Assembly (NCBI GenBank): GCA_937132085.1
Contig: CAKZNV010000107.1
Span: 39,484-103,483, forward strand
Direction: 5' to 3'
DNA: 64,000 nt
From: an uncultured Rubritalea sp.
GTDB lineage: Bacteria > Verrucomicrobiota > Verrucomicrobiia > Verrucomicrobiales > Akkermansiaceae
Shown here: one piece after another, positions 53,174-58,826 of the stretch
Numbering within the stretch: the first letter of the stretch is position 1
Layout: every line of letters starts with the position of its first letter
The notes under the pieces: model-generated
Told to the model about the DNA's origin: nothing
The model's input: only the letters and a program-made list of their open reading frames with translations
The model's database searches: none
Program-made: the position numbers and the translations under genes

Positions 53174-54553
53174 CTAATCATGCACCACTGGTGTCCCAAA
53201 TAAGGTGAATCCAGAAGAACGTTCGATCTTGATTGGTAAAATTTTGCCAACCATGCGGTCATGATTTCCGTCGAAGATGACGATCTTGTTTTGGCTAGTG
53301 CGGCTGCTGAGTCGGCTAGCATCCTTCTTAGAGCCGCCAGTGCAGAGCACTTCTTGAGTCGTGCCTACTAGAGCATCGTGTTTAGCGATTGCCATCTTGT
53401 TGATCATCGCTAGTAGATCTTGGTTTCGCTCTTCCTTCACTGTCTCAGCGATCTGGTCTACCATCTCAGCGGCTGGTGTGTTGCGGCGTTTTGAGTAGCG
53501 GAAGATAAAGGCATTATCGAAGCCAATGTCTCGCATCGTCTCCTTCGTCATGAGGTAGTCTTCTTCCGTTTCTCCTGGATAACCTACAATGACATCTGTA
53601 GTGATGGCTAGGTCCTTGCGGGCTTGCTTCATCTTGTTACAGATCTCTACGAACTTCTCGTTCTTGTAGGGACGACGCATCAGCTTAAGAATGCGGTCAC
53701 TGCCACTCTGCATCGGGAAATGGATGTGTGAGCAGAGTTTTGGAAGATAAGTGAACGCATCGATGAGGTCGTCACGATAGCCGATCGGGTGAGGGGAGGT
53801 GAAGCGGATACGCTCGATACCCTCGATCTCATGCACCTGCTCTAGCAGCTGGACGAATGGTGATTTTCCATCCACTTTTGGAAATTCTGTTCTGCCGTAA
53901 AGATTGACGATTTGTCCGAGCAGAGTGACTTCTACCACTCCACGGTCACGCAGAGTCTTGATTTCATCGATGATGCTCTGGATCGGTCTGCCACGTTCTT
54001 TTCCACGTGTGTCAGGGACGATGCAGTAGGAGCAACTCATGTTACAGCCCTGCATGATAGAAACGAAAGTCGAAGGATTGATTGTCTCTGTGACGTGATC
54101 TTTAATCGTGTTCTGAGAATCTTTTTCTTCCTCGATATCACAGACTGACTCTCCAATCATGGAGAGCTCCACATCATCCATGCGGCGTTCGAGTCGCTTG
54201 GTGAGGATGTCATCCACATATTGGAAAACCTTATGGTATTTCTGAGTGCCCACGACCACATCGAGGTGAGGCACATTATCGAATAATTCATTGCCACGGC
54301 TCTGCGCCATACAGCCCATGAAGCCATAGACTACATGTGGTTTACGCACACGGTGCTTACCCATGTGGCCCATTTTTCCAAGCGCCTTTTGTTCTGCTTG
54401 ATCACGCACTGAGCAAGTATTGACGAGGATAGCATCTGCATCAAACTCATCTTTAGTAAGCGTGTATCCACCTTCTGAAAACATCCGAGCAACCTGCTCA
54501 GAATCACGTTCATTCATTTGTCATCCGTAGGTCTTGATAAATACTTTAGGCAT
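53174..54553 (-). CDS. miaB: tRNA-2-methylthio-N6-dimethylallyladenosine synthase MiaB, candidate selenoprotein (UGA 54521-54523)
   Basis: True start ATG 54553: MPKVFIKTYG-UGA-QMNERDSEQVARMF...; homologs read KTYGCQMN. Remaining Cys (VNTCS, GFMGCMAQ, CNMSCSYC) intact. Confidence 0.9.
54485..54501 (-). promoter_or_regulatory. Candidate bacterial SECIS of miaB
   Basis: UGA + 19 nt + CUGAGCA-GGU-UGCUCGG: 7 bp stem including one U-G, GG at loop start, loop begins 26 nt after UGA. Confidence 0.75.
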
Positions 54554-54788: not shown

Positions 54789-57700
54789 TTACCGTGCCAT
54801 ATTTATTCTTACAGGTTTTTTATCTTTATATTGAGTGATTTTACTGAGTAGAAAATTCTCTAGTCGTTTGTTTTTCATCAGCCGAGCTAAGTCAATTGCT
54901 TTTTGTTGAGTGGCTAGGGCTTGTTTGAAATCGCTTGTCTCTGCATAGGAAGCAGCTAATAAATCTAAGGATAAGGGGTGCTGACCTTTGGTTTTTTTTA
55001 CTAGATCTTCTGCTAGTTTGACTGCTTTCGCTCCATCGCGGAGTGAGGCTTGTGTCGATGTGGCATAAATGCGAGCGAGGTTACTCATGCTATTCATGTC
55101 TTCTGGGTGTTGTTTTAGAATAGCTTGGTATAGAGTTCTGGCAGCTCTAGGTTCCCCCATTTTTTCATAAGTGACAGCAGCCTGATGTTGATAGGATGTT
55201 ACATTAGGCCATTTTTTTATCAAGTTATTGTAGTGTTTGATCGCTTTTTTAAATTGACGACCCCGGTCAAAATATGCGGCAAGACTGAGTTCAAAAAGAG
55301 CTTCTGTTGGTGCAAGTTGATGTGCTTTTAAATAATGCTCTGCGGCAGTTATTCGATTGCCTTGACGCTCCAGGACGATTGCGTATTGGAGCTGCGCTTG
55401 TGGAAAGTCAGGATTCATTTTGATTGCCTTTTCTAGTATAGTTTGCGCTTCTGGATACTGTTTTAGCGAACTCAGTATGAATGCTGTGTTGATATGAGCT
55501 GCGACAAGATTGCTATCGATTGCCAACGCATTTTTATAATACTGAATGGCGGCTTGGCTATTTCCTTTTTCTTGCTGTAGCAGGCCTAAATAAAAATGCG
55601 GCTTAGCTGATTTAGGGTAGATTCCTCTGATGCGCTCGAAGTGGGTGATCGCTTCATTTGTTCGTTTATTTTTTACTAAGTAATCACCAAAGCTTAGATC
55701 GAAATCTCGTCTGCTGTGTGCAGCGATTAGAGGCTTTTGTTGTTCAAAGTAATCATAACTACTGTTTAAGTAACCTGCATCTAACAATAAACTCGATACA
55801 TTAACATAGGAGAAGGTTGTGGCTTCTCTTTCATACCATTTGCCCTTAAAGGGGAGTATGGCATCACGTAGTTTAGTGTTTTCCAAAGAGGCTAACTTTA
55901 GGTCTGCTAAAATTGTTTCGCTTGTTGCTCCACCTTTGTAAATAGCTACTAGCTCTCCTTTAGAGTCGAGTAACAATAGAAGGGGCACTGGGAGAGGGCG
56001 ATGTTTTCCTAGTAGAGCATTGTTTACTATCTGAATTGTTTCGATCATTTGTTGACTGGCATGGCCAACAGGAAAGGGTGGTTTAACTTCGTTAATGTAG
56101 TTTTCGGCAGCTTGTCGTCCACCAGAGAGAGTGTCTGTTGCTAGAGCGATAACACCTAGTCCTTCTTTTTGGTAGTTTGAGTAGTGTTTAGTAATTTCTT
56201 TGATCTCTTCTTGGCACAATGGGCAACTACTGCTGAATATTTTTATTAGAGTGCCTTTCTGGTTTGCGAGTGGCTTAAGTTGTTTCTTGTCTCCCTTTAA
56301 TGTTTCATAGTCGAGCCTAGGTAAACTGATTCTTGCACTAAGAATAATCCGTTCTTTTCCTGACTTCTTAGGCAGGATAACTGGCGTTTCAGATATGCTT
56401 GGAGCAGGAGTAGAGTGAGTGAGTAACTGCGCCTTCCCATGATTTTGGACCAGCAGGTTACGTTTACCTGAAATGACTCCAGAGAACGTTTCTTTCTCTC
56501 CGCCTGGCCATTTAACGGAAACGGAAACGATACTTGATTCATTACCGAAGGGGATAGTAAGGACTTTAGAGTTCTGGCTCAAGAAACCTTCACCAGCACG
56601 CAATGTCCTGATTATAGTTGGAGTGTTTTTGTCTTTGAAGTTTAAAGTAACTTGGGCTCCTATCGCATCACGGTTGGAGCTAGTGCCTCGAAGGCTTAAA
56701 GCTACCCAGTTGTTGTTGCTAGTTGAGTTATTTCTAAGGACTCTGATGCGGGGGGCTGTGCGGTTGGCAACGATCATGTCTAGGTTTCCATCTCGATCCC
56801 AATCTGCTACTGCGACGGTTCGAGCATCATCGATGAAATCTACTCCAGACATAGCAGATGCTGTGGCAAATCGTTTCTCTCCAGTATTGAGGAAAAAGCA
56901 ATTACGTTCTCTACCGCTCCAGGCTTCACCTTTAATCACTCTATTATTTGCTTCTTGAATAGCGGTAAGGTAGGCGGCTTGCACATCTTGAGATGATTGG
57001 TTCTCGATTGCTGATTCTGGTGTGAGCGACACGACCTGTCGCCAAAAGAAACTTCAGAGATCTGGAGCACTTTTCTCAGAGCTTACGAAGCCATTTGGGA
57101 CATAGATGTCTTCCCATCCATCACCATTGGCATCAATAAATCTAGCACCCCAAGACCAGCGACCTTGACGAGTTCCGGAGCTATAGACTTGGTTCTCGAA
57201 TGTCCCATCTTCTTTCTGGATGTAGAGAACATTTCCTTGTGAGGTAAATTGAAGTGATTTACGTGAGTTACTAGTAGCATGTGGCATGAATTGCTTTTGG
57301 AATGCGATACGGTTGCCTGCGGCGGAGAACATGTTTGAGACATAGAGGTCTGGTCTACCATCTCGATTAGCATCTCCCCAGGCTACACCCATGCTGAAAG
57401 ATGAGGTTTCTAGGCCTAGCTCCTTTGTTACATTGGTGAATACTCCTTTGTCACTGTCGTTTCTGTAGAGACAGTTTTTGCCAAAATCATTAGCAACAAA
57501 CAGATCGCTGTCACCATCTTGATCATAGTCTTCCCAGCTGGCAGAATAAGAAAACCGGCTGTTATCTTGATTGAGACCTACTTCTTGAGTCACATCACGG
57601 AATTTCCAGTCTCCTTGATTGAGCAATAGAATGTTTTGGCCACCATTGTTGGCATCAAAGTAAGGAATAGGTGAGGCGATTGAGGTTCCATGATCACCTA

Positions 57701-58826
57701 CTTTATAATATCTCGTAATGTAGAAATCAATTTTACTATCATTGTTGTAGTCTGTAGCTGCCATGGTGTATCCTTGACCGGCATGTTTGATGCTATTTAC
57801 ATGTTTGAATTTTTCTCCACCCAGGTTCTCGAACAAGACGAAAGCTTCCTTAGTCTGAAGGGCGACGTCTTGATCGCCATCGTTATCAATATCTAGAATG
57901 AGTGCTGATCCTGATTCATTGAGAGCTGCTAAGTCTGAGTCCAGAGAGCCTTCTCGCACTGTTCCGTCTGGGTTCTGATAGAATACCCGGTTAGGGAGAC
58001 CTCCTGGCTGGCAAAGGTAAATGTCATCGAGACCATCGTTATTTAGATCTCCAACAGCCAGTCCATTAAAACCAAAATAATTGCGAATGAATGATCGTTC
58101 TAAACGCCCTTGCCAATCAGTCTGGGATAACGTCAGCTGCTCTTTCCATGCAGAAGTCTTCCCGAAAACAGTTTGCGAAACATCTGTGAAGAGTCGCTTT
58201 GCTGCGGTTATTTCCTCATAACTTTGCAACCATATTTTGCTGATTTTTGCCTTTCCTTCAACTTTCACCCATTCAATTTTCCAATCGGAATGTATTGTTT
58301 TGATCGAGTGTTTACTGATGTATGAAGTCTCGAGAAATTGTCTGGTGAGGTATACGTTTGGCTTATCGTTGTTCTTTTCTACCTTATAGAGTTTCCATGT
58401 AAACCGAGTAGTCGCCTCTGTTAGCTTAGTTTGGCTGATCCAAGTTTGGATGTTTTTTACTGGATCAGGTGAGAGTGTGCCATCTATTTTTTGTGTTCGA
58501 GCTACAGTGATTCCTTTTTTCTTCATCACAGTTTGGAGATGAGTCGGAGCTAGCAATGTGGACTGCGCATTTTCTGTGAAATAGAGTTTAAGTTTATGAG
58601 TAGGGATTTCTTTTTCCTTTAATTGAGTAGTTATCTCTTTGAGAGTGGTTTTTGCCAGTGCGCCAAATTGTTCCGTATCCCATTCAGTGGCTGCAGTGGC
58701 TGCTGAGTCCTCTTCAATGACTCTGCTTTGTTGCGTTTTAGTAGTTAATTCCTCAGCAGTAACGTTATATGCTGATAGAGCTAAAAAAAGTATGGATAGA
58801 TTTTTTAAGGTATTATTAAAGAGCAT
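54789..58826 (-). CDS. FG-GAP/VCBS - ASPIC/UnbV - thioredoxin-like - TPR protein (1345 aa), candidate selenoprotein (UGA 57054-57056)
   Basis: ORFs 57054-58826 (...SEKSAPDL) and 54789-57032 are in the same frame, joined by UGA-AGT TTC TTT TGG CGA CAG GTC (U-SFFWRQV) then VSLTPESAI; CRTAC1-like FG-GAP upstream, ASPIC/UnbV, SSCPLCQEE Trx-like and TPRs downstream. Confidence 0.75.
57026..57042 (-). promoter_or_regulatory. Candidate bacterial SECIS of the FG-GAP protein
   Basis: UGA + 11 nt + GCGACA-GGUCG-UGUCGC: 6 bp stem, GG at loop start, loop begins 17 nt after UGA. Confidence 0.7.

Follow-up and report, generated by a model that had tools for sequence, protein, structure and literature searches.

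Does the in-frame UGA codon at this locus end one protein just upstream of another, or is it read as selenocysteine (Sec) within a single long chain, and what would such a residue do at the edge of a propeller domain? We addressed these questions in the window, the whole 64-kb stretch of DNA that was analysed, and in homologs of the gene from Verrucomicrobiota and Planctomycetota.

One reading frame across a UGA codon

On the minus strand, 58826-57057 and 57053-54789 form one frame, the sole interruption of which is the TGA at 57056-57054; reading through it yields a protein of 1345 aa. The preliminary description had joined the two open reading frames in the same way, and this joining holds. 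It had also let the open frame run on for 755 codons past the UGA; the continuation stands, while the count has to be corrected to 754 sense codons. The junction reads SEKSAPDL-U-SFFWRQVVSLTPESAI, with the translated context DL[UGA]SFFWRQVVS, and nowhere else in the 64-kb window does a TGA link two open stretches that each span 150 codons or more. The combination of FG-GAP, ASPIC, thioredoxin and TPR regions that had been proposed is recovered by Pfam on the read-through protein (FG-GAP_3, 5e-39; UnbV_ASPIC, 3e-13; AhpC-TSA, 4e-8; TPR families). Judging from its sequence, the protein is probably exported to the periplasm.

Table. Features of the UGA-containing gene, with positions in the window
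Feature	Position	Strand	Basis
Complete selenoprotein gene (1345 codons, with one UGA read through)	54789..58826	minus	Frame and translation, Pfam
In-frame UGA, codon 591, read as selenocysteine (near certain)	57054..57056	minus	99 distinct homologous sequences share the TGA at this codon
bSECIS stem-loop GCGACA-GGUCG-UGUCGC, nt 12-28 past the UGA	57026..57042	minus	Pairing in homologs, covariation, synonymous-codon nulls
Probable signal peptide MLFNNTLKNLSILFLALSAYNVTA	58755..58826	minus	By eye from the translation
N-terminal alpha/beta domain with Lys145	58130..58750	minus	AlphaFold2 secondary structure; conservation contrast
FG-GAP propeller and ASPIC/UnbV domain	56460..58070	minus	Pfam, AlphaFold2 model, Foldseek
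TlpA/ResA/AhpC-TSA-like thioredoxin domain, CPLC motif (C-x-x-C)	55920..56330	minus	Pfam, alignment, profile match
TPR repeats	54850..55680	minus	Pfam TPR families

A scan of genome contigs returned 45 loci, and the 42 close homologs among them, which come from separate public records, all have a TGA at exactly the equivalent of codon 591, in the context DL[UGA]S(F/V/T)(F/Y/M)WRQVV(S/A). Wider searches, in which the UGA site was masked in the profile, extended this to 106 loci in Verrucomicrobiota and Planctomycetota, 99 of them distinct by flanking DNA; one of the 106 (L162), probably off-frame, was excluded from the RNA tests. Because the TGA stands at the same codon in every close homolog and in all these loci, chance or an assembly error as its origin was rejected. 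Two more copies with UGA at the same site occur in the organism's own genome (C239, DL[UGA]SDHWRAV, and C44, DL[UGA]SCLWRTV). Within the phylum of the window, few genomes have the UGA form (2 of a sample of 394); among Planctomycetota, the family is present at E <= 1e-40 in 101 of 349 genomes, and most copies carry exactly one TGA. Protein conservation is strong on either side of the UGA: W595 is invariant and R596 near-invariant in the homolog alignment, both precede the first listed restart, and together with S592 they are among the most conserved residues of the protein.

An RNA stem-loop and the selenocysteine machinery

What could direct the insertion of Sec at this codon? An Rfam search of the 64-kb window at gathering threshold returned no matches. 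Bacterial SECIS (bSECIS) elements have been described by a loop of 3-9 nt, a stem of 4-16 bp, a G in the first two loop positions, a distance of 16-37 nt from the UGA and a minimum free energy at or below -7.5 (PMC13188914). The stem-loop in the window agrees with every one of these rules: nt 12-17 after the UGA pair with nt 23-28, giving a 6-bp stem and a GGUCG loop at a spacing of 17 nt, with an energy of -11.0 kcal/mol. All six pairs are present in 74 of 88 distinct UGA sequences versus 0 of 18 close non-UGA homologs, which keep the WR protein motif despite this absence of full stems. On average, 5.41 of the 6 pairs are observed, whereas synonymous shuffles reach a maximum of 5.17 with codons drawn from the same column and 3.75 with background codons. 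When the partner is shifted by 1-3 nt, pairing drops from 90% to 20-67% and the number of both-sided changes from 30 to 5-13. At the codon level, the choice of arginine codon tracks that of the codon with which it pairs, CGA/CGG going with TCG (n=56) and CGC/CGT with GCG (n=15). This tracking, the covariation and the pairing above synonymous shuffles demonstrate selection on the RNA at the stem-loop, beyond selection on the protein.

The organism's own genome encodes tRNA-Sec with anticodon UCA (58 bits), SelA (503 bits), SelB (306 bits) and SelD (373 bits), the last itself with an in-frame UGA. Across Planctomycetota, SelB is found in 63 of the 67 genomes with a UGA copy versus 158 of the 282 others (Fisher p 3e-10, with genomes that are not independent). 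In a further search, SelB scored above the cut-off in genomes with the UGA form, except for one incomplete MAG (G408), and it is absent from all five genomes with a Cys or Asp form (0/5). SelB does not reach the threshold in four UGA-bearing Planctomycetota genomes, which, like its absence from the incomplete MAG, counts against the reading we favor. A separate observation concerns G560 (locus L161), a genome in which several family copies have one TGA followed by a divergent sequence ([TGA]PPFWKSVV) and in which no SelB passed the threshold; this could reflect a missing contig or something else.

Computation thus shows selection acting on the UGA, on the stem-loop and on the reading to either side, in an organism equipped with the Sec machinery. 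The claim that the UGA stands for Sec is thus supported by the conservation of the site, the complete machinery, the covarying bSECIS and the co-occurrence with SelB, and we consider Sec insertion near certain. In the mechanism we propose, SelB and tRNA-Sec would decode codon 591 under the direction of the stem-loop, which starts 12 nt downstream.

A candidate redox centre at the propeller/ASPIC junction

Where would the residue lie, and which parts of the protein change with it? An AlphaFold2 model of aa 22-815, calculated from an alignment of 82 homologs (A2), reached a mean pLDDT of 93 and a pTM of 0.93. It predicts Sec591 (model residue 570) at the N-terminus of a helix (model residues 569-580), past the last propeller strands and before the ASPIC domain. 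The best match of the model among solved structures in Foldseek is murine CRTAC1 (9etn; E 4e-27, TM 0.71 by target length), which is also matched in a profile search (5e-41); the profile of the C-terminal domain matches TlpA (1jfu, 3e-29).

This C-terminal domain carries a CxxC motif in 59 of 67 Sec copies versus 0 of 21 non-Sec copies, the distant group included (Fisher p 4e-14), suggesting that the thioredoxin domain probably recycles Sec. Both cysteines are invariant in 59 of 59 aligned Sec copies. When phylogeny is taken into account, only five independent contrasts lie on supported branches, and those that differ all agree in direction (sign test p 0.06 at best). In three non-Sec copies (L136, L137, L141), the thioredoxin domain still aligns, with an hhalign probability of 98-100%, and both cysteines are gone. 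Residues elsewhere in the chain follow the same course: K145, S637, S501, A503 and Q751 are kept alongside Sec and degenerate once it is gone, conservation falling from 84% to 0% for K145, from 96% to 20% for S637 and from 96% to 40% for Q751. Lys145 is lost in 15 of 15 ingroup non-Sec homologs.

The association is not complete, as CxxC is absent in eight Sec copies, two of them in the organism's own genome; the thioredoxin domain is therefore not strictly needed in cis. L167 and L168 keep the UGA and have a thioredoxin-like domain without CxxC, and the genome's two short paralogs as well as L171, L159, L154 and L163 end soon after the ASPIC domain. In the flanking stretches examined, no separate thioredoxin genes were found beside the Sec copies without CxxC, except at L153, where a thioredoxin motif occurs past additional stops in a frame of its own; a search by eye for conserved gene neighbors found none common across clades. 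A conserved resolving Cys near Sec was also sought among the homologs, and none is universal, the common C643 being present in 52% of Sec copies. Some copies feature an extra Cys close to Sec, either two residues past it (L048, L163) or five (L159, L154). In L159 and L154, which have the UGA and no thioredoxin domain, this Cys replaces a conserved Arg (U-S-x-F-W-C). We offer it purely as a suggestion that the extra Cys of these four copies might act as a partner in place of thioredoxin.

What takes the place of Sec in the other homologs? Where close homologs lack the TGA, the aligned codon specifies E (5), R (4), Q (3), A (2), N (2), D (1) or H (1). In the sister group that comes next, a distant one, Cys occupies the site in four loci (DYCSNFW, DYCTTFWR, DYCTSYW, DYCTSFW) and Asp in two, and the Cys-form loci sit in genomes without SelB. 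In a quick maximum-likelihood tree of 88 sequences, Sec is spread over the whole ingroup, where it switches to or from non-Sec about 5 to 7 times, and the Cys/Asp sequences branch outside; Sec is therefore probably the ancestral state of the family, and its usual replacement is probably not Cys. The preliminary description had been hesitant about Cys as the homologous residue, and rightly so: Cys does align with the site in the distant sister group, but inside the family the residue is E, D, Q, A, R, N or H and never Cys. With Cys confined to the distant group, no classical Cys/Sec swap takes place inside the family. The absence of Cys in close non-Sec homologs is unusual for a redox Sec and counts against the explanation that we prefer.

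That explanation, which we hold with considerable confidence, is that a single gene encodes an exported Sec-containing CRTAC1/ASPIC propeller protein in which Sec is redox-active and recycled by thioredoxin. Sec, conserved with S501, S637, Q751 and K145, would be the catalytic residue; it would react with a substrate and become oxidised in each cycle, the fused TlpA-like thioredoxin domain (CPLC) would re-reduce it in the periplasm, and the TPR tail may bind partners. The protein would most likely be an exported oxidoreductase.

Four other readings have to be weighed against this one. The substitutions bear first on the role of the residue. Sec serves as a metal ligand in some selenoproteins (PMC13188914) and could here bind a metal or cofactor at the propeller/ASPIC junction, with thioredoxin only keeping Sec reduced or aiding maturation. 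Residues of metal-ligand type (D, E, H, N) indeed occupy the site in several homologs; however, A, Q and R are also among the substitutions and no further conserved Cys/His set surrounds Sec, and we regard a ligand role as unlikely. The same range of replacements, never Cys, would suit conditional expression, with Sec insertion mainly serving to switch, according to selenium supply, between the full-length protein and a short propeller, and with the residue itself being of minor importance. Since the thioredoxin cysteines, K145 and S637 are lost along with Sec, chemistry rather than a switch alone is indicated, and the switch appears improbable. A true stop, separating a propeller protein from an ASPIC-thioredoxin-TPR protein in an operon-like pair, could draw on a GTG start 8 codons past the UGA in the window, but it would leave SFFWRQ, one of the most conserved segments, stranded between the two codons. 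The frame is, moreover, kept in homologs, which did not present the contrary picture drawn in the preliminary description, that of a site never Cys or Sec in genes that are always two, and the stem-loop and the link to SelB would go unexplained; two separate proteins are hardly tenable. Finally, UGA is reassigned in some bacteria, but decoding as another amino acid (e.g., Cys or Trp) through a changed code or suppressor tRNA is scarcely credible in a genome with tRNA-Sec, SelA, SelB and SelD, with no other UGA between two long frames in the 64-kb window and with a SECIS-like hairpin specifically downstream of this one.

Further candidates and relation to known systems

Other in-frame TGA codons were noticed along the way. 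In the window, miaB (53174-54547, minus strand) has one at the first conserved Cys of the Fe-S site (MPKVFIKTYG[TGA]QMNERDSEQV). One TGA is likewise found in miaB of eight other SelB-bearing genomes and none in other relatives, and MiaB was not found among the names in the 2026 catalogue (PMC13188914). On contig C59 of the organism's own genome, a gene of a different CRTAC1-like FG-GAP family (L066:5886-9230) contains an in-frame TGA (PVRGRS[TGA]TCLAMP) at a site that is Cys in 9 of 16 aligned homologs (RGRSCS, RGRECS) and K, D, V, L, S or P in the others; its product is likely a second new selenoprotein. In two Akkermansiaceae MAGs (L028:8639-11377 and L038:9047-11791), the gene adjoins, by eye, an apparent two-piece formate dehydrogenase gene, possibly encoding another selenoprotein.

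How does the family relate to what has been described? FG-GAP, ASPIC or propeller families are absent from the 119 prokaryotic selenoprotein families and subfamilies in Table 1 of a 2026 review (PMC13188914), and NCBIfam release 20 has no model above cut-off for the Sec-bearing propeller/ASPIC part, its matches to the window protein being mostly to the TPR and thioredoxin parts and below cut-off. Sec machinery and selenoproteins have been reported in Planctomycetes from Porphyra-associated genomes; the main text of that study, as distinct from its supplementary candidate table, names fdhA and fmdB and no FG-GAP/ASPIC protein (PMC4807772). Text searches of the open-licence literature, supplements aside, returned no papers linking selenocysteine or the selenoproteome with FG-GAP and none of relevance for ASPIC/UnbV, and an earlier mention is possible, notably in the supplement of PMC4807772. 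Relative to the published catalogue (PMC13188914), this appears to be a new and widespread planctomycete and verrucomicrobial selenoprotein family. As at least 67 of 349 sampled Planctomycetota genomes and many Verrucomicrobiota records carry one or more UGA copies, it seems that a selenoprotein frequent in common bacteria has been overlooked; a standard gene finder would split such genes in two at the UGA.

With known bacterial selenoproteins (PMC13188914), the gene shares the UGA, a rule-conforming bSECIS, SelA/B/D and tRNA-Sec. Most characterised members, however, carry Sec in a thioredoxin-like fold, whereas here Sec lies outside the thioredoxin domain and forms no UxxC motif. We see roughly even chances that the family represents a new class of Sec enzyme, with a selenium centre that sits at the propeller/ASPIC junction, outside any thioredoxin fold, and is recycled by a thioredoxin domain within its own chain. 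In Planctomycetota it would then be a large, multi-copy enzyme family, and loss of Sec would lead to joint decay of the whole redox centre (Sec, CxxC, K145 and S637), leaving non-catalytic paralogs. Like CRTAC1/ASPIC-UnbV propellers (PF13517, PF07593; murine CRTAC1, PDB 9etn), the protein places an FG-GAP propeller before an ASPIC domain; unlike them, it adds N-terminal alpha/beta, thioredoxin and TPR domains, and the stretches of CRTAC1 matched by the profile leave out Sec and the DLUSxFWR helix. Its C-terminal domain resembles, by sequence profile, exported TlpA/ResA-like thioredoxins with their CxxC, but belongs to a chain of 1345 aa and is linked to a Sec that lies in a different domain. 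For the ASPIC/UnbV propellers of this family, this pairing is a first concrete proposal as to which residue is catalytic and what reduces it.
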